NCBI RefSeq assembly: GCF_000336875.1
Contig: NZ_AOJK01000081.1
Span: 6,946-55,260 of the forward strand
Reading direction: 5' to 3'
DNA: 48,315 bases
Source of the DNA: Halorubrum californiense DSM 19288
Lineage (GTDB): Archaea > Halobacteriota > Halobacteria > Halobacteriales > Haloferacaceae
Shown here piece after piece: positions 4,962 through 29,508 of the stretch. The position numbers and the translations under genes are program-made. Every line of letters begins with the position of its first letter. The stretch's first letter is position 1. Below the pieces are notes generated by a model that was not told the origin of the DNA, searched no databases, and saw nothing but the letters and a program-made list of their open reading frames with translations.

Positions 4962-5085
4962 CGCTTGAACGGGCATACCGGTCGTGTCACGGCCGAAGAG
5001 ACGGGGAGCGTTGGAGACCGCCGCCAGCGCGGCGGGCGCGAGCGCCAACCGTCATCCCTTAGCGTCACGGAGACGGTGGACGGGT

Positions 5086-5658
5086 ATGGACCCGGTGACA
5101 CACGCCGCGGTCGCGTATCTGCTGTACGTCGCGTACGCGGCGGTGACCACACGCCGGCTCCCCGTTCGGTGGGCGCTCGTGCCGGTGGCGATCGGCAGCC
5201 AGTTTCCGGACCTGATCGACAAGCCGCTCGCGTTCTGGGGTGTGATCCCCTACGGCCGGTCGCTGGCCCACTCGGTGTTCTCGCTGGTCATCGTGTGCGG
5301 TGTCGTCTGGTGGGCGACGCGATCGCTTTCGGTCCGGTTTGACGACCGCGTCCCAGATTCGCTATGGCGGGTGACGCCCGCGGCGTTCACGATCGGGTAC
5401 GCGGCCCACCTGCTCGGCGATTCGTGGCAGAGCCTGCTGCGTGGCGACTTGTTTGCGGTGCGGTTTCTCGCGTACCCGTTGTTCGGCGTCCCGCGGAGTG
5501 CCAGCGATAGCATCTCGCCGTGGCTGCGCGTGGTTGAGCTCTATCGCGAGCCGGCCGCGGCGATGCATCTCGAGATCGTCGCGGCCGCGATCGTCATGTT
5601 CGTCGGCCTGCGGCTGTGGGCGGCACGGCGCGGGCGGTGGCCGAAAGCCGAGCGGTGA
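5086..5658 (+). CDS. YdjM/DUF457-like membrane metal-dependent hydrolase
   Basis: 190 residues, starting MDPVTHAAVAYLLY. The pattern fits the PF04307 (YdjM, 'metal-dependent hydrolase') family: an N-terminal TH motif at the start of helix 1, GSQFPDLIDKP after it, RSLAHS leading into a further helix, and AAHLLGDSWQ with His and Asp. These conserved His/Asp residues sit at membrane boundaries and could bind metal. A longer in-frame start exists at 4984, but its extra 34 residues are basic and low-complexity and are not family-like, so 5086 is preferred. The biological substrate of the family is not established. A more distant protein of the same layout is encoded at 36613. Confidence 0.8.
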   Translation: MDPVTHAAVAYLLYVAYAAVTTRRLPVRWALVPVAIGSQFPDLIDKPLAFWGVIPYGRSLAHSVFSLVIVCGVVWWATRSLSVRFDDRVPDSLWRVTPAAFTIGYAAHLLGDSWQSLLRGDLFAVRFLAYPLFGVPRSASDSISPWLRVVELYREPAAAMHLEIVAAAIVMFVGLRLWAARRGRWPKAER

Positions 5659-5764
5659 GAACGGTGAATTGACGCACTGAGCGCCTGTGCGAGGCGATGA
5701 ACGGGGCTGTCTCTCTCACGAACAGATTGGCTCGCCCATTGGCAAAGACGAGAGCTCGCGACGG

Positions 5765-5816
5765 GACCACAGAGGTACGAGGCGGAAGCCCATCACTGAC
5801 GCCGTGAGGTGCTGAC
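5765..5816 (+). mobile_element. Degenerate solitary TnpB-type right end
   Basis: Shows ACAGAGG-N-ACGAGGCGGAAGCCCA as at 1503, but the hairpin that should follow is mutated (CATCACTGACGCCGTGAGG) before GTGCTGAC. Likely a decaying relic. Confidence 0.45.
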
Positions 5817-5950
5817 GGTCGTGGCTGCGCGCACAGCGACCGGAGGGAGCGAGCACGGAGCGGAGGGTGGGGCGGTGGGGCGTGGCTGGATGGTGCGGAT
5901 ACCCCGATCGGCCAGCCGATCGCCGATCCCGACCCCGTCAACGCGGCGAT

Positions 5951-9275: not shown

Positions 9276-9848
9276 TTACTCCTGAAAGTGGGTGGCAGCA
9301 TCCTGAAGCGCTCCCTCGAACTGCCACGCGGCCTCGCTGAACGCCCCATCAGTCTGATCGTCCCACCGCGGGAAGCCACACTGCTCGCTGACGGCGACCT
9401 CCCACGTCGGCGGCTCGACCTGCCCGAGCTCGTATTCGGGGATCGCAACGACATACAGATACTCCTCGTCACCATGGATCCCAACACGTGGATCCTCGAT
9501 CCCGTGGCCGAGCAGAAACAGCGGCTGGGAGAGATGCTGCATCCGACTGGGCTGGCACACATCCGCTGGTGAGTGCGCATCAAGCCGCTGATCGGCCGCC
9601 CGATCGGGATCGAGATACAGCGGCAGCGACGCCAGCTTCTCAAGGAAGACGTACTGGGCGGCCGCGTACGACGGCCCACGGACACTGTGGGTCGCCTCCA
9701 ACAGCCGTTTCAATTCACGCAAGCGGGTGAGCACGCCACGTGGATACCCGTCGGAGTGAGTGTACACCTGTGCGACTGGGTCGGTCGGATCGGCCGTCTG
9801 GCCCTGCGCAAGGGTGCGGACGAACCGGAGTTGGCATCGAGTCGACAT
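9276..9848 (-). CDS. Hypothetical haloarchaeal plasmid protein
   Basis: 190 residues from the ATG at 9848 (MSTRCQLRFVRTL). The open frame continues upstream to 9953, but those codons overlap a small zinc-finger gene's 3' region and are cysteine/arginine-rich, unlike the body. The protein has SYAAAQYVFLEKLASLPLYL and an acidic C-terminus rich in Trp (EVAVSEQCGF, EAAWQFEGALQDAA). No domain is recognised. It lies 64 bases downstream of the zinc-finger ORF on the same strand, so they may be co-transcribed. Confidence 0.65.
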   Translation of the reverse strand: MSTRCQLRFVRTLAQGQTADPTDPVAQVYTHSDGYPRGVLTRLRELKRLLEATHSVRGPSYAAAQYVFLEKLASLPLYLDPDRAADQRLDAHSPADVCQPSRMQHLSQPLFLLGHGIEDPRVGIHGDEEYLYVVAIPEYELGQVEPPTWEVAVSEQCGFPRWDDQTDGAFSEAAWQFEGALQDAATHFQE

Positions 9849-9912
9849 CGAATCACGCCGGCAATTGGTGCGCCGGCACCCATCCCGGCGCCAACAACAC
9901 CACAATACGGTG

Positions 9913-10041
9913 TTACCGGCCATCCGGGTCAGGTGGCGCGACACGATGCCCACAGGGGCGACAGATCGCGGTGTCCGGACCGTGGATGACTACCACCGAG
10001 ACAGTCACACCACAACGCGGACAGCGGTCGTACGTCGCCAT
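9913..10041 (-). CDS. 42-residue zinc-finger protein
   Basis: A very short ORF beginning MATYDRCPRCGVTV and ending GHRVAPPDPDGR. It has two paired-cysteine knuckles, CPRCG near residue 7 and CRPCGH near residue 27, the layout of haloarchaeal one-domain zinc-finger micro-proteins. The stop (TAA) precedes the hypothetical gene starting at 9848 by 64 bases. Coding is supported by the intact CxxC pairs and haloarchaeal codon choice, not by length. Function unknown, possibly DNA or protein binding. Confidence 0.6.
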   Translation of the reverse strand: MATYDRCPRCGVTVSVVVIHGPDTAICRPCGHRVAPPDPDGR

Positions 10042-11791: not shown

Positions 11792-13471
11792 TCATCCAAG
11801 CGACACGCCGCGTTCCTGAAACACGGTCTCGAACCCCCGGTCGGCGATCGCCGTCACGAGCCCGGTGTATGCCGCCTGGACGGTCGGGTCTTCGACGAGC
11901 TCGCGGAACCGGCTCTCAAAACGGCGCCCGTGGGCCGTCCGGCGTTTGTCGGACCGATCGTGGGCCGCCTCGTGACAGAGCACGAGAAAGAGATCGTGGG
12001 TCCACGCCAGCCGGTTGGAACTCGTCACGGCCGAGTCGGTCACCACGATCCGGCTGTGGCCGTCCGTCCACGCGTTCGGCGTCGCTTCACCCCACTCAAT
12101 GGTCCGATCAACACCGATGGCGTCGGCGAGCGCCCGCGCAAACAGGAGGTATCGCCCCTGTCGCGTCGACAGTGCGGTATCAGGGAGGCGAGTGTACCCC
12201 TGCCAGACGCCTGCCTCCTTGGCACGCGTTGTGACATCGAAGCAGCTCGGGAGTGACACGGCAGCGTCATCGCCACGACCGGCACTCACGAGCTGGGCGG
12301 TCGCCGAATCGCTGGTGTCGAGAATGATCGCCCCACGCTCGACCAGGGCGTCTGCCCCGTGGTCGGCCCCGTCCTGCCATGCGATCTGGGGTGCCGCCTG
12401 AATCCGGGCGAGACTCACCGGTGTCTCAGTGACGAGCTCGAAGAGCTTCCGGTCACGCCACCGGTCGCGGCAGTCGGCGTCGCTGGTGAGCAGTTCGGTC
12501 ATCATCGCTCGCGTCTGATCGGTGAGCGCGTCGTCGCGCAGCTGATCGTACAGCGTGACGCGCGCCGCATCGAGCGTGTCTTGAATCCGGGCCCACCGTT
12601 CACACCCCGACTGAACGGCTGTCCGCGCGAAGTTCAGCGTGAGGTTTCCTTTCGAGACGACGACCCCGCCCACGCCGGCGTCGTGATCGGTGGTGACGTA
12701 CAGCCCGTTGCTGTAAATAGCGAGTTCCGGCGTCGGCGTCTGTTCGAGCGCGAGGTACGCATCTGGCGTCTCACGGGTGACCGTCACCCGACTCTCGTCA
12801 ACCGCATCGAACGGATGGCCACGATCGACGGGCTCGCCGTTGACGAGCACTGCCACGCCCGTCCGGAAAGTGAGATACGCGAACCGCGTCCGGAGCCGCT
12901 CAACGATGCGGGGCCACTGATAGCTCTCCGGATTAGGGACCTCGCTCGTGTAGTGGTTGATGGTTACGCAGACGCCGTCGACCGCGTGGTCCGTCTCAAC
13001 GACAACTCCCTCCCGGCCGCTCGCACGGGCAAAGGGGCCAGTCTCGCGTTCGTTCTGGTAGTCGAAACACAGCGCGTGGTGGCCGCTCCAGATGCGGACC
13101 GCACCTTTTGCGATGATCGCGCCCGTGCCGATCCCCCACTCGCCGAGGGTGGCGTCGTCATCGCGGGATTTCGTGCCGGCGCCCAACACGGAGAGATCCC
13201 GCATCCCCGTCTGGCTGCCGAGATCCACGCCGGCGCCGTCATCACAGACGACCGTCTGCTCTGGTGTGACGCTCACGAGCACGCGGGACGCCCCGGGGCT
13301 GTCGACGCCGTTTTGGACGGCTTCACGGATCGCGTCTGGGAGGTCCGCCATCTGGTCTTCGATCAGGTACTGCGCGACCTGATCGGTCGTGGTCATCTCA
13401 ACCGTCTCGGTACAACTGTCGTCGGTCCCGGAATGGTCCGGGGGAGTGGCCTGCTCGGACATGGTGGCCAC
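11792..13471 (-). CDS. GHKL ATPase fused to a C-terminal zincin-like domain
   Basis: 559 residues (ATG at 13471; MSEQ at 13462 equally possible). The N-terminal third is a GHKL (Hsp90/gyrase/histidine-kinase) ATP-binding domain. It has the N-box E50-x3-N54-x2-D57 (REAVQNGVD), the G1 box DDGAG (78-81) and the G2 box LGEWGIGTG (109-117). The middle (about 180-330) resembles the transducer-type fold that follows such ATPases. The end carries HEAAH (500-504) and then HGRRF, the zinc-protease pattern HExxH...HGxxF seen in SprT/DUF45-like zincins. No histidine-kinase H-box, receiver or topoisomerase Tyr was seen. Its first ~28 codons and leader are duplicated at 14269. Suggested role: ATP-gated, DNA- or protein-dependent protease on a mobile element. 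Confidence 0.75.
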   Translation of the reverse strand: MATMSEQATPPDHSGTDDSCTETVEMTTTDQVAQYLIEDQMADLPDAIREAVQNGVDSPGASRVLVSVTPEQTVVCDDGAGVDLGSQTGMRDLSVLGAGTKSRDDDATLGEWGIGTGAIIAKGAVRIWSGHHALCFDYQNERETGPFARASGREGVVVETDHAVDGVCVTINHYTSEVPNPESYQWPRIVERLRTRFAYLTFRTGVAVLVNGEPVDRGHPFDAVDESRVTVTRETPDAYLALEQTPTPELAIYSNGLYVTTDHDAGVGGVVVSKGNLTLNFARTAVQSGCERWARIQDTLDAARVTLYDQLRDDALTDQTRAMMTELLTSDADCRDRWRDRKLFELVTETPVSLARIQAAPQIAWQDGADHGADALVERGAIILDTSDSATAQLVSAGRGDDAAVSLPSCFDVTTRAKEAGVWQGYTRLPDTALSTRQGRYLLFARALADAIGVDRTIEWGEATPNAWTDGHSRIVVTDSAVTSSNRLAWTHDLFLVLCHEAAHDRSDKRRTAHGRRFESRFRELVEDPTVQAAYTGLVTAIADRGFETVFQERGVSLG

Positions 13472-13495
13472 CCCCTCGGGGCACCAGATAAACTG
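13393..13495. repeat. 103-bp direct repeat, copy 1 (start of the GHKL gene)
   Basis: Covers the leader and first ~26 codons of the GHKL gene. It matches 14269-14371 at a constant offset of 876 bases, with only a handful of differences, mostly around 13424-13440. The two copies flank the DUF433-DUF5615 gene pair. Confidence 0.9.
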
Positions 13496-13530: not shown

Positions 13531-13872
13531 TCAGACCCAGTGATCCACATAGACGACACCTGAAATTTCTTCCTGCGGATACTGCTTCGACATCCGATGT
13601 ATCGCAGCGGCAATTGTTCGTGCTGAGATAGTCACATCGCTCACGTACAGGGCCGCACAGTACGCTGTCGGATCAAGTTCGAGCACAAAATCGTCATCAT
13701 ACGTGAGAATAAGCCGGTCGTCCGATTTTGAGTACTGACCCAGTTCTCGGTCAGACGAGCCCTTCCCAAACGCAGTGAGATCATTGACGTGTTCGACATC
13801 GTGACCGTAGTTCCGGAGCTTGTGGATGATCCGGTACTCGACGTTCTCATCAACCAAGAGCCGGTAGCTCAT
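13531..13872 (-). CDS. DUF5615 PIN-like toxin
   Basis: 113 residues: MSYRLLVDENV opens with the D-E-N of DUF5615 PIN-like proteins, followed by the GHDVEHV segment and RLILTYDDDFV, where the paired Asp residues complete the acidic site. These proteins are putative RNases paired with DUF433 antitoxins. The ATG at 13872 overlaps the antitoxin stop (13869-13872). The pair lies between two copies of a 103-bp repeat. Toxicity is inferred from family knowledge. Confidence 0.82.
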   Translation of the reverse strand: MSYRLLVDENVEYRIIHKLRNYGHDVEHVNDLTAFGKGSSDRELGQYSKSDDRLILTYDDDFVLELDPTAYCAALYVSDVTISARTIAAAIHRMSKQYPQEEISGVVYVDHWV

Positions 13873-14156
13873 TCGTGTGGTGTGATAGAAGATTGCTGTG
13901 CCGCCTCCGTCGCAGCACGGGCATGACGGGTTTCAATTTGCTCCATCGCTTCGGGATTGCGATGGTAGTACGCGAGCGCTTCGTACACTTCGCCAACATC
14001 GAGTCCATATCGATCGGCGATATGGTCTGGGCGGTTCCCAGCCTCTTCGACGAGCGCATGGAGCTGTCGAACCGTTATGCGACTCTCCGCAACGTGGGGC
14101 TCGTTATGAATGGTCGACTCGTCTGCGGAGACGATTCGGTACTTCGTCACTGCCAT
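13869..14156 (-). CDS. DUF433 antitoxin
   Basis: 95 residues from the ATG at 14156 (MAVTKYRIVSADESTIHNEP). An upstream in-frame start at 14228 adds residues that do not match the family. The helix-turn-helix-like core ITVRQLHALVEEAGNRPDHI followed by ADRYGLDVGEVYEALAYYHR is the DUF433 signature. The stop overlaps the DUF5615 toxin start, so the two are translationally coupled. Expected role: neutralising the toxin and repressing the shared promoter. Confidence 0.85.
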   Translation of the reverse strand: MAVTKYRIVSADESTIHNEPHVAESRITVRQLHALVEEAGNRPDHIADRYGLDVGEVYEALAYYHRNPEAMEQIETRHARAATEAAQQSSITPHE

Positions 14157-14268
14157 AGGCTGTGGTACGTGTGCCGATGACAAAAAGCCGAGCCTAATCG
14201 GTCCAGCATGGATTTCAAATAGTGGCACTCACTCAGCCGTGAATGGGTGAACATCCACTCACTACGGA

Positions 14269-14371
14269 TCATCTCAACCGTCTCGGTACAACTGTCGTCA
14301 GTCCCGGCTGAATCCGGGGGAGTGGCCTGCTCGGACATGGTGGCCACCCCCTCGGGGCACCAGACAAACTG
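14269..14371. repeat. 103-bp direct repeat, copy 2 (truncated GHKL gene start)
   Basis: On the minus strand this reads the same MATMSEQATPP...TETVEM beginning as the GHKL gene, then diverges at codon 27 and runs into unrelated sequence (open to 14147). It is a non-functional duplicate of the gene start. Confidence 0.9.
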
Positions 14372-15362: not shown

Positions 15363-16283
15363 TCATCCAATGTCGACTGCGTCAATCAGTCTGGTACTCA
15401 CCTCGCGAATACGTTCACACCGAGTGAGGAGTTGCTCGCTGTCATCGTCGCTCCATGCTGCGAGATACCGCGCCGAGCCATCCATCTCGAGCCCGAACTG
15501 CTGCCCGACGACGTACGCGACCGCCTCAGCTTCGCGTTCACGCGCCTCTTTTCCGACCGTATCAGCTGGGTCATGAAGGAGTGCGTGGGCGTACTCGTGA
15601 CAGAGCGTCCCCGCGACCGCCGCCGTGTCGTCGCTGCGCACCTGAACGTGCGGGTCGCCGTCGACGTGGCGACACACGCCTGCGGCGTCACCGTGGGGCC
15701 ACGCCTCACTGTCGACGATCTCAACCGAGACGCCGAGGTCTGTAGCCGCCTCCACTAACGCGGTCACCAGTCCGTCCGCGTCGCCTTCGCTGGCCGTTTC
15801 AAGCTGAGGTAGCGGTTCCCCCTCTGTTTGGGAGACGTCGAACACGGGGACGGGTTTGAACCCGACAACGCCGTCGGCCCACTCGTCGGGTGGGGTGTCG
15901 TCGTACTCGCAGTCGTTCTGCTCGTGGTAGGTGGGCCCGTCACCACACTCAGGACACCGACTGGTGATGATCGGCGCCCAAATCCAGATCGCAGATTCAC
16001 CCTCGATCACGTGCCGATCAAAGTCGTCTTGCCACGTCCGGTAGCCTGCCACCTTCGTCGCCTCCGGACACTGGAGGGTGATCAAGAAGGTGTTTCGATG
16101 CGAGTAGTCGTGGAACCGAGACTGGACATCAAGCCACTGTTGGAACTGCTCGCTGGCGCGTGCCGCATCAACGGCGTCGCAAAGCTCGGCAAGCCACTGG
16201 TCGATCGCCTGGTGCATCTGGTCGGCGCGGGCGTCACCGTCTCCGAAGGTGACCGGCCCGCTCGCGGCGTGGGATTCAGTCAT
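15363..16283 (-). CDS. ArdC-N / ImmA-IrrE-like zinc metallopeptidase
   Basis: 306 residues from the ATG at 16283 (MTESHAASG); the upstream extension to 16376 is not family-like. The N-terminal ~100 residues match the ArdC ssDNA-binding domain pattern (FHDYSHRNTFLITLQCPEAT, VAGYRTWQDDF, IEGESAIWIWAP). A small zinc-ribbon insertion follows (CPECG, residues about 110-125). The C-terminal half is a zincin with HEYAH (229-233) and a downstream Glu-rich helix (EREAEAVAYVVGQQFGLE) supplying the third ligand. In bacteria ArdC proteins protect incoming plasmid DNA in the recipient. Its place next to the transfer genes supports an anti-defence or establishment role. Confidence 0.8.
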   Translation of the reverse strand: MTESHAASGPVTFGDGDARADQMHQAIDQWLAELCDAVDAARASEQFQQWLDVQSRFHDYSHRNTFLITLQCPEATKVAGYRTWQDDFDRHVIEGESAIWIWAPIITSRCPECGDGPTYHEQNDCEYDDTPPDEWADGVVGFKPVPVFDVSQTEGEPLPQLETASEGDADGLVTALVEAATDLGVSVEIVDSEAWPHGDAAGVCRHVDGDPHVQVRSDDTAAVAGTLCHEYAHALLHDPADTVGKEAREREAEAVAYVVGQQFGLEMDGSARYLAAWSDDDSEQLLTRCERIREVSTRLIDAVDIG

Positions 16284-16459
16284 GCTCCCACCCATCGGGA
16301 GCACAACAATCCCGGCAGCCCACCCCACCGGAGCGCCCCGGTGACTCGCTCGGCACGCGACCCGGAATCGGTCCACTCACTGGACACCACCCGGGCTGTT
16401 TCGTTCACTAGACTCACGGCGGAACATTCATATTGGTTCATGTCAACATTCCACATGTT

Positions 16460-19400
16460 ATGGGGCGCGCTGCCGACTCCCCCGCTGATGACCGCACAGA
16501 CCACACGCACCTCCAGATCCAACCGACTGAGACCGAGCTGTCAGCCGCCGCGGTCGAGCAGGGGTTTCGTCGGCTCCACGGGCTCGAGACGGAGTCGAAC
16601 GGCTGGACCGACCGCCTCCGCGGGCCGACCCCGCCAACCCTTGAGTTTCGGCTCCACCGGCCGGCCGGCGCCGACGCAGCCCTCAGTCTCTATGCGGGGA
16701 TCACTGACGCCCCCACAGCAACACTCCGGGCGGGGTTACGCGCCGCCTGTCCCAACGAGTACGAACTCACGCCGGCGACACCACCCTCGATCCCCACAAC
16801 GGAGTCGACAGAGTCGGCACCCGACAGCGAAGAGTCGACGGCGTCAGTCGACGAAGAGCCCCTACGTGCCGTCGAGTGGGTGGGTGATGCCGACCGGCGC
16901 GACGACTGGCAGACCCGGCTCACGCCGTTCGAAACGTTCACTGACGACGACAGCCGGCTGCCGCTGGCGGCCGTCGTGGAGACGCTCGCGGAGACGGACG
17001 CGGCAGTCACCTACCAGGTGGTCTGTCAGCCGTTTCGCGACTACCGCGGCGACGTACGATACCGAAAACGCCAGCTTGAGGCCGGCCGCGACACGCCAGC
17101 GAGCCGGTTCGTCACGGATCTGATCGGGCCTATCACCGATCCGGACGAGACGGCCACCACGAGCGGAGACGGTGATAGCGACCGGCTGACAGCACTCGAC
17201 GCCGTCGACCCCCGGCACGCGTTCGTCGTCAACGCCCGCTGTCTGATTCGGGGGCGTGATGCCACGGCAGTCGCCGAGCAACTGGCCGGCACACTGGGCG
17301 CGACCTCCGGGCCCTACTATCGGGTCGACGCCACCCAGGCCGACGACCCGACGCGGGTCGCGGCCGCCATCCGCGACCGCACGGTCCACCAGCCGGCGTA
17401 CGACACGCTCACAACCAAGCTCCCGTGGACGGCCAATCGGAGCCGCGGGATCGTCGCGGACGCGGCCAGCGCTCCCGGCTTCGCGCTCGTCGATGGCGCC
17501 ACGCTCACCGCCGCGGGGAGCCGAGCAGTCGCGCCAACCGACCCGGATCGCACCGTTGTGGAACCGCCACCCGTCAGCCAACTCAAGCGTTATCACACGG
17601 CCGGGCTCACGCTGGGGCATCCCCGCGATCAGGACGGCACGGCTGCGAACGATCCTGTCGCGGTGCCGCCGGCGCTCCAGTCGCTTCACGTGGCGTGGTT
17701 CGGCAAGACCGGCTCGGGCAAATCGACGAGTCTCCTCACGGGGATGCTCGACAATCACGCCGCCACGGACGGCGCCGAGGTCCTCATCACACCGAAAGGC
17801 GGTGATATGGCTGCGGCGTATCTGCGCGCCCACTACGCGCGGTACGACACGCTTGAAGACGTCTACTACTTTGACTGTACCGAAACGCTGCCCGCGCTGT
17901 CGGTTTTCGATATTCGGCCACAACTGGCGGCGGGGATCGACCGGGCGACCGCCGTGGCGAATCTCACCGACCACTACATCGAAATTCTCGAAGGCGTGAT
18001 GGGCCCCGAGCAGTTCCACCAGGCGGTGCGGTCGCCCGACATCATCCGCCAGCTGGTGAAGGCCCTCTTTGATCCGGTCCACGGGAGCGACGCCTTCCCC
18101 CACCGGGATCTCCAGCGGGCGGCCGCCCGCTTTCATGAGACGGGTGAGCCGCCGGCCGTCACCGACGACGAGCTCCAGGCGATGCTGTACAACGTTGCCG
18201 CCAACAGCCAGCAGACGTTTGATGAGCTCCTTCAGGGTGTCCACAACCGGATCGAAAAAATCCCGCTCGATGACCGACTCGGCCAGCTGTTCAATCATGT
18301 GCCCGGCGACGGCGACCCACACCTCGACTGCCGCGAGGTGATCGACGAGGACGCCGTCGTCATCATCGACACCGGCGGGCTCCGTGACGCCAGCCAGCAG
18401 GCGCTCACGCGGACGGTGCTCTCGAAGCTGTGGACCGCCCTCCAACGACGCGCCCAGACGACCGCGGCCGATGCCCGCCCGCTCGTCAACCTGTATCTCG
18501 AGGAGGCCGCCCAGCTGGTCACCTCGGGGATTATCGACGATCTCCTCGCACAGTCACGCTCGTTCGGCTGTAGCGTCACGCTCGCCACCCAGTTCCCCGG
18601 CCAGCTCCGGGTGCGCGACGAGGCCGCCTACGTCGAGTTGCTCAACAATGTCTCGACGATCGTGACCGGGAGCGTCCCCGTCGATGATGCCCTGACCAAG
18701 CGACTCGCCACTGCTGATCAGGAGCCCGCCGCGGTCGCCAACCGACTGCGCGCGCTCAGCCGCGGTGAGTGGCTGGTACGGCTGCCCGCGCCGTTTAATG
18801 AGCCACCACCACCGCCGTTTCTGGCCGAAAGCGCGCCGCTGCCGCCCGGCCACCCGGACCGGGATGAGTTTCGCCCCGCCCGGGAGACGGCGGTCGCCGC
18901 CCGCATTGATCAGTGTCGCGACCAGACCCGACTCACGGCCGGCCTGGATATCCGGACACCGCAGCCGACCACCGGCGACGATGCCGACGAAGCAACAGCC
19001 CCAGCCGAGGCGGCCGCCGCACGCGTGGATTCGGCGTTGCCGTACACCACGCGACTGCCCGACCCGGTTGGCTACGATGATGAGCGGCACGCACTACAGT
19101 GTCTGCGCTGTGACAGTCGGTATGACCCTTCGCCAGAGGGGCTCCGCGCAGCGGTGGCGTGTTGTCACGACCCCAGCGAGGTCGACCGCGACGACTACCC
19201 CATCTGTGAGCTGTCGCTCAAGCTCACCTACACCGAACGCCAGGAGAGCCCGATTCGTGATGCGGGCCTGCGCTTCCTCCAGGCGGTGTACTCAGCCCAT
19301 CAGGGCCAGTATGACCCTAAAATCGAGTATGACATCACCCGCGACAGCATGCGGCGGCTCCAAGAGTACGTCGACATCGATGACGCCGAACTCGACGAGC

Positions 19401-19987
19401 TGCGCGAGGCGGGGCTGCTCAGCCGCGACTGTCGGTACCCACACATCTTGTACACGGTGACCCCGGACGGCCGTGACGCCATCGGCGTGCGACATCGTGA
19501 GGGGGTCGCCCACGGTGCGGGCGCCGGCGACCTCAGCGAGTCAAGTCTCCACGTGGCGATGGTGGAAGCGGGCACAGCGCTGCTTGAGACCGAGTATGTC
19601 GCCGACCCGGACTCACCGGCCGTCAGTGTCGAACAGTACTACGAGGTCCCCGAGGGCCGGCTTGACGCGGCCGCCGTCGACGAGACAGGCGCGGTGGTCG
19701 CGGGGCTCGAAGCCGAGCGGATGAACAACGACCTCGCACAGGCGGTGCCCGACGACTACGACAAACTCGCGGCCCAGGAGCCGGCGGCCGCCATCTGGGT
19801 CGTCAAAAACCGGGAGGCCGCCCACGAGATTCTCACGGCGTTGAACACGCCACCGGACGGCCAACCACGCGTCGAGAAGACGTACGGCGCCAAGACAGCA
19901 CCCGTGTCGTTCACCATCGCCCAGCCTGGGCTCACAGCTGTGAAAACGTTTCAGTCAGTCCGTGACGCGTACGACAGCCGCGGCTAA
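16460..19987 (+). CDS. HerA/TraD-like conjugative ATPase with C-terminal nuclease-like domain
   Basis: 1175 residues from the ATG at 16460; an in-frame TTG lies at 16433. N-terminal ~400 residues: acidic domain of unknown fold. Walker A is FGKTGSGKS (about 414-422). A Walker-B-like strand VVIIDTGG is near 632 and LYLEEAAQL near 677, followed by SVTLATQFPGQL, the sensor segment of HerA/VirD4/TraG ATPases. After 880 come a zinc-ribbon-like CLRCDSRY...CCH, a winged-helix stretch (YDITRDSMRRLQEYV, TVTPDGRDAI) and a last domain with GRLDAAAVDETG and VAGLEAERMNND. The Asp, then Glu-x-Glu pattern suggests a PD-(D/E)XK nuclease. Likely the coupling protein or DNA pump of conjugation. A TATA-like TTCATATT lies about 30 bases upstream. 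Confidence 0.82.
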   Translation: MGRAADSPADDRTDHTHLQIQPTETELSAAAVEQGFRRLHGLETESNGWTDRLRGPTPPTLEFRLHRPAGADAALSLYAGITDAPTATLRAGLRAACPNEYELTPATPPSIPTTESTESAPDSEESTASVDEEPLRAVEWVGDADRRDDWQTRLTPFETFTDDDSRLPLAAVVETLAETDAAVTYQVVCQPFRDYRGDVRYRKRQLEAGRDTPASRFVTDLIGPITDPDETATTSGDGDSDRLTALDAVDPRHAFVVNARCLIRGRDATAVAEQLAGTLGATSGPYYRVDATQADDPTRVAAAIRDRTVHQPAYDTLTTKLPWTANRSRGIVADAASAPGFALVDGATLTAAGSRAVAPTDPDRTVVEPPPVSQLKRYHTAGLTLGHPRDQDGTAANDPVAVPPALQSLHVAWFGKTGSGKSTSLLTGMLDNHAATDGAEVLITPKGGDMAAAYLRAHYARYDTLEDVYYFDCTETLPALSVFDIRPQLAAGIDRATAVANLTDHYIEILEGVMGPEQFHQAVRSPDIIRQLVKALFDPVHGSDAFPHRDLQRAAARFHETGEPPAVTDDELQAMLYNVAANSQQTFDELLQGVHNRIEKIPLDDRLGQLFNHVPGDGDPHLDCREVIDEDAVVIIDTGGLRDASQQALTRTVLSKLWTALQRRAQTTAADARPLVNLYLEEAAQLVTSGIIDDLLAQSRSFGCSVTLATQFPGQLRVRDEAAYVELLNNVSTIVTGSVPVDDALTKRLATADQEPAAVANRLRALSRGEWLVRLPAPFNEPPPPPFLAESAPLPPGHPDRDEFRPARETAVAARIDQCRDQTRLTAGLDIRTPQPTTGDDADEATAPAEAAAARVDSALPYTTRLPDPVGYDDERHALQCLRCDSRYDPSPEGLRAAVACCHDPSEVDRDDYPICELSLKLTYTERQESPIRDAGLRFLQAVYSAHQGQYDPKIEYDITRDSMRRLQEYVDIDDAELDELREAGLLSRDCRYPHILYTVTPDGRDAIGVRHREGVAHGAGAGDLSESSLHVAMVEAGTALLETEYVADPDSPAVSVEQYYEVPEGRLDAAAVDETGAVVAGLEAERMNNDLAQAVPDDYDKLAAQEPAAAIWVVKNREAAHEILTALNTPPDGQPRVEKTYGAKTAPVSFTIAQPGLTAVKTFQSVRDAYDSRG

Positions 19988-20193: not shown

Positions 20194-21468
20194 TCACTCA
20201 CTGGAGAACGGCCACCAGCCGCTCGAGGACTCCTCGTCGGCGGGCTCGAGCTGTCGGCGGCGCTGGCGTTCCGTCTCGAGTGCTGTCCGAAGCCGCTCGT
20301 TTTCTTCAAGCAGCGCTTCAACGCGGTCGGTGAGCTCGGCGATCCGCTCACGACGGGCGTGGGCGCGGTCCGGGTGGGTCGGCGGTAACTCGGTGAGGTC
20401 CTCGCTCGGTGGTAACACATCGACCCCAGCGACAGCCGACTCATCGGGAGGCGTCGCGTCAGTCGGCGTCGTGGCCGCAGTGTCGAGGCGAGCCGACTCG
20501 TCGGCTGTACTGGACTGATCGTCGACCGAATCAGTCGCCTCTGGCGGTGAGTACGTGTCGTTAGTCGCCCGAACTGCCCGCTCGATCGTCTTTTCGCCGT
20601 AGGTGCTGCCGTCGGCGTAGTGGACGGCATCCCACTTCTCACGAAATAGGTCGGAGCGGCGAAACAGCCGGTCAACACGCGTGGGGTCGCCACCGGTCCA
20701 AAAGGCGAGCAGCCGACACAGCGCCAGGTCCGCCTCGGAGTGGCTTTCGTACCCGCTTGTTGAGCCGCCCCACAGCCGGCTGAACTTTGCGCCGTTGGCC
20801 GCGTTCTGCGCCCGCTCGAGGAGTTCGTCATCGGCGATGGGTACGGGCGCCTCTGTCGGCGCTGACTCGGTAGCGTCCGACGGCGCGGCCGACCCGGTCG
20901 TCGGTGTGTCGCCAGGGTCAGGGTCTGCGTCTGGGCTGAGTTGCTCGTCGGCGAGCGTGGCGAGCGCGTCTGTCCGGGCCATGGCGGTGTCGGGCGTGTC
21001 CGGAACGTGGTCGCCGGTCACCGTAAAAAACCGCGACCGGTCGTACACCTCGAGGTCGCCCGCGCGGTTGCGCCCGTCCGGGAGTTCGCCGGTCACGATC
21101 ACGTGATACCCCGTCCCCGAGGGGCTGACTTCGGTGTACGAATCGAGCGTGTCGAGGATATCGGCGGCCCACGCGGCCGGCGTCTCGGCGGCCGGATCGC
21201 GACAGTCATCGAGATCGATCCCCACGAGCGGGTCATCGGCGGTAAACACGAACCCCAGCCCGTCGACGGCCGTGGTCGTGACTGCTGCTCGAGCCGTCGC
21301 AAACGAGGTCCACGTCTCGGGCGTGGTTGTCGACGCAAACTGGGTTTCCCCCGGGATGATCGGTACTTTGGTTGGCTTGCCGTCGCGGTCGTGGGTGCGC
21401 CAACACACCCATTGGTCACGGTCGACGAGCGCCGCGGGGAGGGCCTCGGCTGGCGGCGGCGATGCCAT
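20194..21468 (-). CDS. PrimPol/NrS-1-like primase
   Basis: 424 residues from the ATG at 21468; a GTG at 21498 adds ten. The N-terminal ~180 residues fit the archaeo-eukaryotic primase (PrimPol) fold of mobile elements: the WVCWRTHDRDGKPTKVPIIP opening, the catalytic GIDLDDC (Asp at about 85 and 87), and SPSGTGYHVIVTG with the nucleotide-binding His (~122). A linker follows, then a helical segment (EADLALCRLLAFWTGGDPTR, LFRRSDLFREKW) typical of the helicase-binding domain of NrS-1-like polymerases. The C-terminus is a coiled coil (ELTDRVEALLEENERLRTAL) ending in GWWPFSSE. No helicase domain is fused. It probably primes plasmid replication or lagging-strand synthesis after transfer. It converges on the TraD-like gene. 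Confidence 0.8.
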   Translation of the reverse strand: MASPPPAEALPAALVDRDQWVCWRTHDRDGKPTKVPIIPGETQFASTTTPETWTSFATARAAVTTTAVDGLGFVFTADDPLVGIDLDDCRDPAAETPAAWAADILDTLDSYTEVSPSGTGYHVIVTGELPDGRNRAGDLEVYDRSRFFTVTGDHVPDTPDTAMARTDALATLADEQLSPDADPDPGDTPTTGSAAPSDATESAPTEAPVPIADDELLERAQNAANGAKFSRLWGGSTSGYESHSEADLALCRLLAFWTGGDPTRVDRLFRRSDLFREKWDAVHYADGSTYGEKTIERAVRATNDTYSPPEATDSVDDQSSTADESARLDTAATTPTDATPPDESAVAGVDVLPPSEDLTELPPTHPDRAHARRERIAELTDRVEALLEENERLRTALETERQRRRQLEPADEESSSGWWPFSSE

Positions 21469-21498
21469 CAGTTCGTGAGTACTGATCACAGTGCGCAC

Positions 21499-24497: not shown

Positions 24498-25309
24498 CAC
24501 ACACGTACCCCTCCATAACGAGACGTAGCGTGCTCACAACCGTTGCTGCCGGGAGTCTGACCGTCGCCGGCTGTTCCGAGAGCCGTGCGCCAGCCACGAC
24601 GGGCGCGGGTGCTATCACGGAGGTCCGTGTTGACGACACCACGCTCGTCGTCGAGTACGACGCCGACACGAGCGCGACCGGCCTCGCCGTGATTGCGCCC
24701 TCCGGTGAGGCGTTTGCCGAGCGTGAGCTCACACCCGGCGCAAGCCAGGAGAGCATTCCCATTGGGACGACGTACCCACCGGGCACCTACACCGTCCAAC
24801 TCGTCGATGCGGACAGTGTTGTGGCTGCGGTTGAGCGGTCGCTTCGACCCGAGGTCGTGATTCGGGAGCTGAAGCTTGCTCGGAACCACCCAGAGGAGAT
24901 GTACGAAGGCGCGACGAATCAGGTCGTTCGGACCGAGACCATGCTTCACGTAGAGAATCAGGGAAGTGGACCAGAGAAGCTGGTACAACTCCGATTTGAT
25001 GGATACGTCCCACGGCCGACGCCAGAGCAGTCGGACGATAGTGGAATTGTTGTTGTTGACGACCAGCCGGAATTCCATACCGAGCCGGTCATCGACCCCG
25101 GTACTTCTGTGGAGTTGTACTCACGGGAATTTCCGTTCTCATCCAGCAGTCAGGAAGCGAGTTGTGAACCAAATGGGAGTGATGGGCAGTTTACCGTAAC
25201 TCTCGTTGGGTCCGTCAGTGGAGACAGTACTCAACAAACGTACGAAGTCACATACGAAGGGGAGGACCTGCTCACCTGTGATATCTCGATTCAGGAGGGT
25301 GAGTTATGA
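24494..25309 (+). CDS. Tat-exported lipoprotein of the conjugation operon
   Basis: 271 residues from the ATG at 24494. The N-terminus TRRSVLTTVAAGSLTVAGC is a twin-arginine signal with a lipobox (VAGC), the usual haloarchaeal export route for lipoproteins. The mature part is acidic, beta-rich and of unknown family, with Ig-like strand patterns (TTLVVEYDADTSATG, GTYTVQLVDADSV). It overlaps both neighbours by four bases (ATGA). The last third, from about 24890 on, is visibly lower in GC than the neighbours and continues so into the next gene. Role inferred: surface component of the mating apparatus. Confidence 0.78.
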   Translation: MTHTYPSITRRSVLTTVAAGSLTVAGCSESRAPATTGAGAITEVRVDDTTLVVEYDADTSATGLAVIAPSGEAFAERELTPGASQESIPIGTTYPPGTYTVQLVDADSVVAAVERSLRPEVVIRELKLARNHPEEMYEGATNQVVRTETMLHVENQGSGPEKLVQLRFDGYVPRPTPEQSDDSGIVVVDDQPEFHTEPVIDPGTSVELYSREFPFSSSSQEASCEPNGSDGQFTVTLVGSVSGDSTQQTYEVTYEGEDLLTCDISIQEGEL

Positions 25310-26409
25310 GTGGGGTCTCACTCACAGACGTTGGATTTCAGTGGTTCCTAGATGCTGTTGAACAGATCATCGAGTGGTTTGATGATGGCGTCAAAAACGG
25401 ATACCGCGATCTGACGGAAGCACTCTTCGGAACCCCAGTTCCGGAGGCGTCCAATGGCATCCCACTGGGGGAGCCGAATAACGAACCGTGGGTCCAACTT
25501 TACGATTCACTGGTCGCCGGAGAGGTAGCACTCATCGCTTTCTTGATTCTCATCGTATGTGTTCAGGGCAGACATATAGTTCGTATCTTCAATTTCGCAG
25601 ACCCAATACGGGATAGGAGAGTGCGCAGGTCGGCGTGGACTGGCGTGATCCTGATCGCGACTTGGTACTGGGTTGCTGTGACCTCCTTATTCCTCATCGA
25701 TGGCTTTGCCATCGCACTTGTTCCCCCGGTGAGGTCAGTCGTGGATCCCTTGGTTGATTTCCTCGATGTTACTCTCTCAAACCCCACCTTGGGATTGATT
25801 CTTGCATTCGTCGGCGCGCTCGCCATGTGGATACTCCAAGCCCTACTGTACCTCCGTGAACTCCTGTTGTACGTCTTCGTGTACGCGATGCCGATCGCGA
25901 TCGCGGTCGCATACGGTGGGATCCCCGTGTTGTCGGATATCGCCGCCCGCGTGGCAGTCAAGTTCATTCCCCTGGCGGTGATGCCGCTCCCAGTCGCGCT
26001 GCTGTTCCGCGGGTACGACCTCCTCATCGGCGGCGACGCGGCGACACTCGCACCCGAGAGCCCGTTCTTCGGCTATCTGATCGCGGTGTCGCTGCCGGTG
26101 GTGAGCGTGTGGATCATCTGGCGGCTGTTCGCGTACGCGACCCCACGGCTGGTGCGTACCGTGGGCCGGGTGACCGGGCTGACCGTCACCGCGGGCGCGG
26201 TTGTCGGCGCCACCGCAGTTGCGGGCCCATGGGCGGGCGCCACCGCGGCGCGATGGGGGCCGAAAGCCGCGGCCGGGCAGGCGGCCGCCCAACAGCTCGG
26301 CGGCGAGCGTGACCAGGGTGAGACGACGACAGCATCGGCACCAGCCGTGCGAAGCACCGAGACGGGCGCGCCCAGCTACCGGCGCACCGAAAACGAACCC
26401 CGCCCATGA
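25306..26409 (+). CDS. VirB6/TrbL-like polytopic membrane protein
   Basis: 367 residues. After an amphipathic start come at least six membrane segments: EVALIAFLILIVCV, GVILIATWYWVAVTSLFLI, LGLILAFVGALAMWILQALL with LLLYVFVYAMPIAIAVAYGG, FIPLAVMPLPVALLF, LIAVSLPVVSVWIIW and LTVTAGAVVGATAVAG. The tail is soluble and low-complexity. The layout and its place directly before VirB3/VirB4-like genes fit the VirB6/TrbL inner channel protein of type IV secretion. The first half has lower GC than the second, starting abruptly near 25860, which suggests a recombination joint. Start and stop overlap the neighbours by four bases. Confidence 0.75.
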   Translation: MSGVSLTDVGFQWFLDAVEQIIEWFDDGVKNGYRDLTEALFGTPVPEASNGIPLGEPNNEPWVQLYDSLVAGEVALIAFLILIVCVQGRHIVRIFNFADPIRDRRVRRSAWTGVILIATWYWVAVTSLFLIDGFAIALVPPVRSVVDPLVDFLDVTLSNPTLGLILAFVGALAMWILQALLYLRELLLYVFVYAMPIAIAVAYGGIPVLSDIAARVAVKFIPLAVMPLPVALLFRGYDLLIGGDAATLAPESPFFGYLIAVSLPVVSVWIIWRLFAYATPRLVRTVGRVTGLTVTAGAVVGATAVAGPWAGATAARWGPKAAAGQAAAQQLGGERDQGETTTASAPAVRSTETGAPSYRRTENEPRP

Positions 26410-27494
26410 GTGACCAATCTGACTCGCCGGCGAGCCGGCGCGTGATGGACACGCTCGGAACGGGCCGCCAACTGCCAATCGTCGGGATCGACGAGCGGGA
26501 TCTGTACGTGCTCGTCGGCTTCCCCATTGCGGGGTTAGTGGGTGGCGCGGCAGTCGGCGCGGACGCCCTCGTGTTGCCGCTCGTGTGTGTTGGGCTCGCA
26601 GTTGGCGTCGCCGTCGTGTACGCCGCGCCGCGACAGCTCCCCGCCAGCACGTGGCTTGCCGACCTCGCGCGGTTTTACCTGCGTCGGCCACGGGTGACGC
26701 TCCACGCGGCAGTGGCTGACGAGGCGACGGCCGGTGGTAGTGAGGGTGTCCCGCGGCCGTTCGCCGTCGACGAACACACCCAAGCGCTGACGGGGATCAA
26801 GCGAGCGTGGCCCGGCCACGGCGCAATCGAGCAGGCGGACGGGACGATGGCGACGTACGTTGAGGTTACGCCGGGCAACATGGACTTCGCGATGGCCGAC
26901 GACTGGGCTGCGCGCCAAGCGGTGGGCGAGGCGTTCGCCGACCAAGAGCTCACCTTCCAGCTGACGCTGTACACGACGACCGAGCCGTATCCGGCTGCGA
27001 CCCTCGTCGACCAGCTTGAGGCACGACTGGCCGACCCGGACGTGAGCGCAAACGAGTCGCTCCGCAGGCTCATCGCCGCCTACCGCGAGCAGCGACCCGC
27101 GGATCTCGCGGACACCCACCGAGTGCGCTACTTCCTCGGTGTTCAGGTCGCGCCGTACGACGTCTACGAGCGCCACCCAGACGAACGCACGCCGGCGGAG
27201 CGACTCACGACGCTCCCCGTCGTGGGCGTGTTGGTGACGCCGTTCGTCACGCGGCGAGAGCGCCTTACGGAGGCCGAGCTACGGGGCGCCCAACTCGAGA
27301 CGCTTCGCGAGCGGGTGCGGACCATCGAGACCGAGTTCATCGGCAAGACCAGTGACGCCGCTGGGCGGCGGCTCTCGACGGCAGAGCTGTTAGGATTGGC
27401 CACGCAGTTTTGGACCGGAAGCGACAGTGAGACGCCGCCGGTTGCCACACACGCGGGGGTCGATCACGAAACACGAGGGGATCGCAATGGGTGA
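26406..27494 (+). CDS. VirB3/VirB4-N-like membrane protein
   Basis: 362 residues. Two closely spaced membrane helices near the N-terminus (LYVLVGFPIAGLVGGAAVG and LVLPLVCVGLAVGVAVVYAA) are followed by a soluble domain. This matches a VirB3/PrgI-like unit fused to the non-ATPase N-terminal domain of VirB4-type proteins (ALTGIKRAWPGHGAIEQADG, YVEVTPGNMDFAMADDWAAR). There is no Walker motif. It would form the membrane base on which the following VirB4 ATPase docks. Its stop overlaps the ATPase start by eight bases. Confidence 0.72.
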   Translation: MSDQSDSPASRRVMDTLGTGRQLPIVGIDERDLYVLVGFPIAGLVGGAAVGADALVLPLVCVGLAVGVAVVYAAPRQLPASTWLADLARFYLRRPRVTLHAAVADEATAGGSEGVPRPFAVDEHTQALTGIKRAWPGHGAIEQADGTMATYVEVTPGNMDFAMADDWAARQAVGEAFADQELTFQLTLYTTTEPYPAATLVDQLEARLADPDVSANESLRRLIAAYREQRPADLADTHRVRYFLGVQVAPYDVYERHPDERTPAERLTTLPVVGVLVTPFVTRRERLTEAELRGAQLETLRERVRTIETEFIGKTSDAAGRRLSTAELLGLATQFWTGSDSETPPVATHAGVDHETRGDRNG

Positions 27495-29508
27495 CGTGGT
27501 GGTCGTGGTGGCCGGGCTCGACTCGCTGTCAGCCTCGACGCTCGTCTTGGGGGCGACGCTCAGCGGTGGGCTCCTCGTCGTCGGAATCTTAGTGGGGGTG
27601 TGGGTACAGGCGCGGCAGCCAACCCACGATCCCGAGGTGGATCTGTCGGCGTTCATCGAGCCGCCGGATTCGCCGCCGGCGGCAGATCCCGCTGTTGCGT
27701 CAGCTAGCCAGCGGGATCAAGACGCCGTCGCGCCCGCAGCCGTCGAGTGGGAGAGTCGGTGTGCGCGTGTCGGCGACGAGTGGACGACCACCCTGTACAT
27801 CGCCGACTGGCCGGATTATCCCAGCGACGGCTATCTCAGCGAGCTGTTCACGCTGACAGATGTCCGGTTTCACGTCACTGCGCAGGTCAGCCCGCGGGAT
27901 CAGGAGCGGGCACTCGATCAGCTTCAGGCGGCCGCAGACGATCTCAAGGTTGACGCCGATCTGGAGTCAAGCGTTCGCAGCACGTATCTCCACGACCGCG
28001 CGACTGAGGCAGCGGGAACCTACCGCGCCGTTGAGGACGGAACGCGCGTGTTCTCGCAGGCGGTGTTCGTGACCGTGCGGGCGGCCGACCGGGAGGACCT
28101 GCGGGCGGCCGTGCGCCGGGTGAAACGCACACTCCGTGAACAGCCCGCCCAGCTTGCGCCGAAGACGGCGATCTGTGCCCAACAGCGAGCGCTGCGGAGC
28201 GCGGCGCCGTTCGGTGGGGCGCCACTGGATCGCCGCACAACGGCGTTAAGCGGCGCCGTGGGCGCGCTGTTGGCGTCGCCGCACCGGCCCACCCTGTTAG
28301 AGGCAGACGGCGTCGAACTCGGCGTCCAACGGCATACGGACACGCCCGTCGTCGTCGATCCCTTTGCCCGGGAGAACGGGTACGCGACCTTTACGGTCGG
28401 TGACCCGGGCTCGGGCAAGAGCTTCAGCGCGAAACAGCGATTCATCCGGTCGGTGGCCCACCACGAGGACCGCATTGGGGTGATCTTAGAGCCGCTCAAC
28501 GACTGGGCGGGCGTCGCCGAGGCGCTGGACGCTCAGCGGATCACGGTGGGTGGCACGCTCGGGATCAACCCGCTCGAGATCACGCCGCCCTCCGAGCAGG
28601 CGCGGCACCGGCAGGGGGCTGACGCCAGCCCGTTCACCGAAAAGAAAGAGCGCGCGATCAGTTTCCTCGCGAACTTCTTTGCGCACCGCGGGATCACGCT
28701 TGGCGATCGGCGGACGACGCTGGAGCTGGCGATTGAGACCGCGTATCGAAACGCCGGGATCACCGAAGACGTGACCACCCACGACCGGGCAAGCCCCACG
28801 CTGCGTGACGTGATTGATGTCCTCGAAGGGATTGTCGCTGACCCGACAGCCCACACGCTCCGGACGGACGCCGAAGCCGAGAAACTCAACGCCGATGCGA
28901 CGTGGCTCATCGACCAGCTACGGCCCTTCGCCCCGGACGGCCAGTTCGCCCACCTGGGCCGGGCCAGCGAGATCGATTTCGGCAGCACCGATCTGGTGTA
29001 TCTGGATCTGGCCCAACAGGAGGGCCGGGTCGGCGGGCGGACGAGTCTCGTGATGCAGTTGCTCATCTCGTCGGTGTACGAGCGCGCTAAAGAGACGGAC
29101 AAGGAGGTGGTCTTCGTGATCGATGAGGCTAGGTATGTGTTGCGTGACGCCGAGAATCTCGCCTTCCTTGAGACGATCTTTCGGCACCACCGCCACCATG
29201 ATCTGTCGATTCAGCTGGTCACACAGACGGTCGATGAGTTCTTCGAGCGATCCGAAGCGGAGATGATCCTCGATCAGTGTGCGATCAAGCAGTTCCACCG
29301 GCTGGACGGGATGGATGACCACTGGGCGACGGAGTTCGGGTTAAACGACGCCCAAAAGCGATTCGTCCAAGAGGCGGTGCCCGGTAACGAGGAGTTGGGG
29401 TACGCCGAGGCGCTTGTGGGGGTCGACGGTGAGTGGCGCGGGATCGAGATCCGAGCGCTTCCCGCCGAGACGGCGGTGATCGAGGGGACTGGTGAGGGCG
29501 ATCTGTAG
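27487..29508 (+). CDS. virB4: VirB4-family conjugative ATPase
   Basis: 673 residues from the ATG at 27487, which overlaps the upstream stop; the longer frame from 27427 lies inside the previous gene. One N-terminal membrane helix (ASTLVLGATLSGGLLVVGIL), then the VirB4 middle domain, Walker A GDPGSGKS (about 305-312), Walker B VVFVIDEARY (Asp 546, Glu 547) and the sensor VTQTVDEFF. HRLDGMDDHWATEF and FVQEAVPG are typical of the VirB4 C-terminus. It powers pilus or channel assembly and substrate transfer at the membrane. It is the last gene of the operon that starts at 22431; the following gene is on the opposite strand. Confidence 0.92.
   Translation: MGDVVVVVAGLDSLSASTLVLGATLSGGLLVVGILVGVWVQARQPTHDPEVDLSAFIEPPDSPPAADPAVASASQRDQDAVAPAAVEWESRCARVGDEWTTTLYIADWPDYPSDGYLSELFTLTDVRFHVTAQVSPRDQERALDQLQAAADDLKVDADLESSVRSTYLHDRATEAAGTYRAVEDGTRVFSQAVFVTVRAADREDLRAAVRRVKRTLREQPAQLAPKTAICAQQRALRSAAPFGGAPLDRRTTALSGAVGALLASPHRPTLLEADGVELGVQRHTDTPVVVDPFARENGYATFTVGDPGSGKSFSAKQRFIRSVAHHEDRIGVILEPLNDWAGVAEALDAQRITVGGTLGINPLEITPPSEQARHRQGADASPFTEKKERAISFLANFFAHRGITLGDRRTTLELAIETAYRNAGITEDVTTHDRASPTLRDVIDVLEGIVADPTAHTLRTDAEAEKLNADATWLIDQLRPFAPDGQFAHLGRASEIDFGSTDLVYLDLAQQEGRVGGRTSLVMQLLISSVYERAKETDKEVVFVIDEARYVLRDAENLAFLETIFRHHRHHDLSIQLVTQTVDEFFERSEAEMILDQCAIKQFHRLDGMDDHWATEFGLNDAQKRFVQEAVPGNEELGYAEALVGVDGEWRGIEIRALPAETAVIEGTGEGDL

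Follow-up and report, generated by a model that had tools for sequence, protein, structure and literature searches.

The fusion gene and its haloarchaeal setting

The window, by which we mean the whole 48,315-nucleotide stretch of Halorubrum californiense DSM 19288 DNA under analysis, carries a minus-strand gene (11792-13471) whose product joins a GHKL ATPase to a zincin. The gene encodes 559 aa when read from the GTG at 13471, from which all residues are numbered here, and 556 aa when read from an in-frame ATG at 13462. Because homologues use the latter position, it is likely to be the true start. Pfam is nearly blind to both halves of the window protein, given that its HATPase_c_3 match reaches 16 bits (cut-off 25) and its C-terminal SprT-like match reaches 12.4 bits (gathering threshold 25.6). 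Therefore, the architecture was evaluated through homologues and structure prediction, and we now regard it as near certain.

Upstream of the fusion gene and on the same strand is an ArdC-like gene (15363-16376), whose product has a weak ArdcN match and an M78/IrrE-like zincin with the motif HEYAH. A DUF5615 toxin-like and DUF433 antitoxin-like pair (13531-14228, minus strand) lies between the two genes as cargo, and the window also carries a VapB/PIN pair. Transfer functions are represented by a TraG/VirD4/HerA-like ATPase of the element (16433-19987, plus strand; a protein-domain match), a TrbL/VirB6-like gene (25306-26409), and a VirB4-like gene (27427-29508). Thus, the ArdC-like zincin, toxin-antitoxin pairs, and transfer genes named as neighbors in an earlier, sequence-only reading of this DNA were all found. 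A 103-bp direct repeat (93%; 13393-13495 and 14269-14371) duplicates the start of the fusion gene together with its upstream region and brackets the DUF5615/DUF433 pair, suggesting that this pair arrived through recombination at the duplicated start. Two other genes in the window are also of interest. The protein encoded at 20197-21498 (minus strand) includes an NrS-1 polymerase HBD domain (E 4e-29) and is probably the primase-polymerase-type replication protein of the element. A 225-aa protein with no Pfam match is encoded at 9279-9953 (minus strand), and 15 of the 36 haloarchaeal loci compared have its gene conserved close to the fusion gene.

In 29 of these 36 loci, an ArdC-like gene precedes the fusion gene in the same orientation. 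The two may be adjacent (71 bp apart or overlapping) or separated by up to 5.9 kb, with toxin-antitoxin pairs and similar cargo filling the gap. A matching ArdC subclade (72-100% identity) is present in all six fusion-bearing genomes of the genus and in 7 of 35 genomes overall (p 4e-6). In one genome (G024) that carries this subclade, no fusion gene was found on a contig that stops 4.6 kb downstream. Co-divergence of the two genes is weak within Natrialbaceae alone (r 0.46, 88/2000), and in the window each of the two genes is closest to a different relative, indicating that the pair recombines.

The Hsp90-like ATPase half

The fusion protein carries the N-box, G1, and G2 elements of the Bergerat fold that define GHKL proteins. 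These are the N-box E50xxxN54xxD57, with the catalytic Glu and Mg-binding Asn (13301-13324), the G1 box DDGAG (D77-G81, in the arrangement D77-x-G79-x-G81; 13229-13243), and the G2 box GEWGIGTG (residues 110-117, G110...G115-x-G117; 13121-13144), all encoded on the minus strand. Among 21 aligned family members, E50, N54, D57, D77, G79, G81, G110, and G115 are invariant, and G117 is present in 20. Consequently, the assertion from sequence alone that all residues of these boxes are present holds, and each was found where it had been placed. HATPase_c_3 also scores above the Pfam cut-off in bacterial members of the family.

An AF2 model of the full protein, with 29 family sequences as input, has a pLDDT of 81.7. 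Its best matches among solved structures are Hsp90 proteins (12-15% sequence identity), with TRAP1 foremost (Z 20.1 over residues 24-411, 354 residues, rmsd 5.4). Furthermore, the segment GVVVSKGNLTLNFARTAVQ of the fusion protein (residues 269-287; 12611-12667, minus strand) aligns with GLIDSSDLPLNVSREILQ of HtpG, which is the Hsp90 middle-domain signature, such that NFAR of the fusion corresponds to NVSR. N280 and R283 in this segment are invariant in the 21-member alignment, and we take R283 to occupy the position of the catalytic Arg of Hsp90. Both the N-terminal and middle domains of Hsp90, with the catalytic-Arg signature, are thus represented, and the ATPase part as modeled is structurally closest to this two-domain unit. 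The Hsp90 C-terminal dimerization domain is absent, and in its place the last 149 residues are predicted to fold as a zincin. When the N-terminal domain was used in a sequence search of the PDB, the strongest matches were PMS1, PMS2, and MutL. No MutL-family model matched at its cut-off, and NCBIfam mutl matches in relatives cover about 50 residues with scores far below the cut-off.

The zincin half

The C-terminal 149 residues (11795-12241, minus strand) were modeled separately by AF2 with a pLDDT of 87.3 and a pTM of 0.83. This domain includes a WTDG motif (12059-12070), which is a hallmark of the family upstream of the active site, followed by HEAAH (residues 500-504; 11960-11974), with predicted zinc ligands H500 and H504 and catalytic Glu E501, and by HGRRF (residues 514-518; 11918-11932), in which H514 is the presumed third ligand. 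T469 and D470 of the WTDG motif, the three HEAAH residues, H514, and F518 are invariant in the 21-member alignment. HExxH together with a third-ligand candidate and a modeled zincin fold places the domain, by sequence and prediction, in the zincin superfamily (clan MA).

The top PDB match of the zincin model is yeast Wss1, with a Z score of 7.6 (100 residues, 3.4 A) that is moderate, lies below the level that would dismiss a chance arrangement, and reflects a likeness that other zincins, ERAP1 among them, show as well. Schizosaccharomyces pombe Wss1 (Z 6.8) comes next, followed by aminopeptidase-type gluzincins, selecase, and the SprT domain of SPRTN (Z 5.1). Because nearly all of the well-ranked structural matches are zincins, the fold itself is well supported, whereas a specific kinship to Wss1 and SPRTN is suggestive only. 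Pfam gives weak matches to SprT-like, WLM, and YgjP; the SprT-like and WLM gathering thresholds are missed by the window domain, and the best family member reaches an E value of 0.0037. Searching PDB sequences with a profile of the zincin returned no real match. In a test of direct homology with the ArdC-like zincin of the window, hhalign aligned only 17 columns, so the two are not closely related.

The sequence-only reading had described HEAAH...HGRRF as a SprT/DUF45-like zinc-protease motif and had named beforehand the lack of a zincin fold around residues 490-530 as a possible refutation. The motif is present, and structure prediction supports the fold in that region. Its expectation that HEAAH would be conserved in homologues is likewise borne out: beyond its invariance in the 21-member alignment, the HExxH-H-F pattern is kept in 26 of 29 aligned members of a wider set.

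A broad and coherent family

Three full copies of the fusion gene reside in the source genome of 3.68 Mb (100, 86, and 84% identity). Close relatives add four further full copies (75-77%) plus broken ones, and the nearest named matches (about 76%) are from Halorubrum. More distant relatives reside on plasmid records of Natrialbaceae (55-58%) and Halobaculum (32%), and bacterial relatives (24-29%) are found on plasmid records of Variovorax, Bosea, Methylibium, Deinococcus, Rhizobium, Xanthomonas, and Pseudomonas. Further members emerged from scans that covered 84,980 genomes and 2.9 million viral contigs, namely in Burkholderiaceae, Pseudomonas, Paenibacillus, and Anaerolineae and on phage contigs. 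Each relative whose C terminus was examined has HExxH and then H-x-x-x-F within about 10 residues, and nearly all have a [WF]T[DN]G-like motif upstream. An Acinetobacter copy, on a contig filed as phage, carries HEYAHLLDDEEGHNFEF, which is of the same motif class. A bacterial query identified 201 plasmid records with a relative, of which 91 are conjugative and 41 mobilizable (132/201), and 89 are in Acinetobacter. Among phage records searched by tblastn, the window protein had no match, and a Bosea query matched only Acinetobacter "phage" contigs.

Distances calculated separately for the ATPase and zincin halves are strongly correlated (Mantel r 0.96, 0/2000 permutations; 0.95 without haloarchaea), which argues that the two halves have been inherited together. 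Each catalytic half also exhibits a dN/dS of 0.13 among Halorubrum copies, indicative of purifying selection. Judging from these comparisons, the fusion is an old family whose two motif sets are common to haloarchaeal plasmids, Pseudomonas, Xanthomonas, Acinetobacter, Burkholderia, Bosea, Deinococcus, and phage contigs. Therefore, what had been viewed as an unusual combination of domains is a real architecture, though not a one-off.

Three of the 29 aligned members have lost HExxH. Members of this kind (L050/L111, L112, and L059) retain the N-box, which suggests that they are pseudoprotease derivatives and that their ATPase has a role without proteolysis. L112 still retains WTDG. The gene is also repeatedly disrupted in nature, as a split copy, as a C-terminal remnant, or with an IS5-family transposase beneath a broken match (G023:C1:813237-816386, G008:C1:1046760-1047503, and the NC_019967 copy), which marks it as accessory. 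Many loci from the genome scan (among L060-L108) were left out as Hsp90 or other GHKL proteins matched through the ATPase part only. Two proteins, from a Woesearchaeota genome (L095, 596 aa) and a viral contig (L114, 506 aa), were kept out of the family. Their C-terminal motifs, HELSH...HNxxFY or HEASH...HNxxF, apparently belong to a GHKL-zincin arrangement that is either separate or very distantly related.

Bacterial plasmid and phage settings

On Pseudomonas syringae and Pseudomonas savastanoi plasmids, the fusion gene lies within the virB-virD4 operon, between virB11 and the coupling-protein gene virD4, and is followed by genes for TrbM, topoisomerase IA, and SSB. In Xanthomonas and Pseudomonas aeruginosa, it directly follows the topoisomerase III gene, with a plasmid DnaG primase gene close by, and in Pseudomonas putida the next gene encodes SSB. 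The P. putida copy shares its stretch with ArdR, DNA methyltransferase, and Abi genes. Phage contig L113 has terminase and NAD-ligase genes nearby, and L112 has a ligase gene as well. The theme shared by these settings is DNA handling by mobile elements. No annotated ArdC neighbor accompanies the bacterial copies in the loci examined. In an Acinetobacter contig filed as phage (L130), a separate gene that is annotated as encoding a YfgC-type peptidase and has HEIAH (5042-5836) directly precedes the fusion gene.

Possible functions of the fusion protein

Our best explanation, which we hold tentatively and with somewhat less than even confidence, is that the fusion protein is a mobile-element accessory that serves as an ATP-gated protease for proteins bound to element DNA during transfer or establishment. 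We infer both its mechanism and its substrate as follows. The protein would form an Hsp90-type clamp, made of the GHKL domain and a middle domain with the catalytic Arg, in which a Wss1/SprT-like protease replaces the usual C-terminal dimerization domain. ATP binding would close the N-terminal dimer around a client and bring the zincin onto it, such that closure controls protease access. The clients might be proteins bound or covalently attached to element DNA during transfer, establishment, or replication, including relaxase or topoisomerase adducts, SSB, and host DNA-binding or restriction proteins. In haloarchaea, the fusion protein perhaps acts at a step that the ArdC-like protein encoded upstream also serves. 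The structural match to Wss1 and SPRTN, along with the transfer, topoisomerase, SSB, primase, and ligase neighbors, is what points toward removal of protein from DNA, which also was one of three roles suggested from the sequence alone and is the one that fits best. Counting against this explanation, the structural likeness to crosslink proteases is moderate, some members keep the ATPase without HExxH, no DNA-binding domain was identified in the fusion protein, and the link with transfer genes might reflect nothing more than location on plasmids. In addition, R388 ArdC with the protease mutation E229A continues to promote conjugation (PMC7213743), so that a neighboring zincin need not work by proteolysis.

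A second suggested role, in anti-defence, is possible by way of ArdC. The fusion might be an anti-restriction or anti-defence entry factor, itself an ArdC-type partner, that counters the host defence proteins met by incoming DNA through chaperone-like remodeling and cleavage. The synteny of the ArdC-like gene in haloarchaea and the P. putida copy near ArdR, methyltransferase, and Abi genes are consistent with this idea, as is the finding that ArdC of R388 is required in the recipient against HsdRMS (PMC7213743). However, about 20 related genomes have ArdC-like genes without the fusion, and the bacterial loci examined are without an annotated ArdC neighbor, and so we consider this role unlikely.

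To a similarly low degree, we can envision a regulated chaperone-protease that acts on an element regulator or transfer protein without contacting DNA, for example as a quality check on the transfer machinery or on toxin-antitoxin proteins. The Hsp90-like N-terminal and middle architecture would suit such a function, as would the gene position between virB11 and virD4. Yet topoisomerase, SSB, primase, and ligase neighbors recur across unrelated elements, and no transfer operon surrounds the phage copies examined.

The third role proposed from sequence, that of a defence effector, is the most doubtful of those suggested and is unsupported by PADLOC, which yields no significant full-length match and only weak generic GHKL matches. 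By analogy with phage rIIA, a GHKL sensor could be coupled to a toxic protease output in defence or superinfection exclusion. The fusion model does have BFVD fold matches to RIIA-like proteins, at low TM-scores, and rIIA proteins combine a GHKL domain with a variable C-terminal domain in counter-defence (PMC7824862). Nevertheless, the hhalign profile comparison with T4 rIIA is weak (probability 9.5% on 116 columns), and the gene sits beside transfer genes rather than in a recognizable defence island. Finally, an ordinary ATPase with a vestigial zincin, as the loss of HExxH in three members might suggest, is very improbable given retention of HExxH-H-F in the other 26 and a dN/dS that is equally low in the zincin and the ATPase.

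AAA+ motors generally drive the ATP-dependent proteases that have been well characterized. A Wss1/SPRTN-like zincin joined directly to an Hsp90-type ATPase would couple ATP to proteolysis differently, and ATP gating, if real, would define a new class of ATP-dependent protease. It is more speculative still, and on balance we lean against it, that conjugative plasmids, haloarchaeal elements, and phages carry such a class, powered by a GHKL/Hsp90 clamp rather than AAA+, as a means of freeing DNA from proteins while it is transferred or replicated. Well-studied Pseudomonas plasmids carry copies within their transfer operons, and many plasmids of Acinetobacter and Xanthomonas have one too, so what clears relaxase, topoisomerase, or host proteins from conjugating DNA can be put to a direct test. 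At present, the database label "ATP-binding protein" conceals the family.

Comparison with known systems

No model of the full-length protein exists in NCBIfam, PHROGs, PADLOC, or Pfam. No description of a GHKL-zincin or GHKL-metalloprotease fusion was found in the literature searched, which covered few subscription journals, and a survey of MORC and MutL proteins does not mention a peptidase or protease. The closest description encountered is of rIIA proteins, in which a GHKL domain is followed by a C terminus that varies (PMC7824862). Thus, the parts are known, and their combination and its breadth appear to be undescribed.

Several known systems resemble the fusion in part. MutL and MORC GHKL ATPases are alike in the N-terminal domain (PMS1/PMS2/MutL), whereas the fusion has no MutL C-terminal domain. 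T4 rIIA-like proteins also are element-encoded and have an N-terminal GHKL ATPase with an SRE-type middle-domain signature, although T4 rIIA lacks HExxH and its profile similarity is weak. ArdC of R388 is likewise a mobile-element zincin, but its ssDNA-binding ArdcN domain has no match in the fusion protein by domain search. Wss1 and SPRTN, which are SprT-WLM proteases for DNA-protein crosslinks, share HExxH, a third His in H-x-x-x-F, and a small zincin fold. In contrast to these proteases, the fusion has an ATPase in the same chain and no visible SUMO or ubiquitin parts, and it falls below the Pfam SprT cut-off. Hsp90 proteins such as HtpG and TRAP1 share the Bergerat ATP fold, the middle-domain NxxR, and the top whole-model matches over residues 24-411, and where they carry a C-terminal dimerization domain the fusion carries its zincin.
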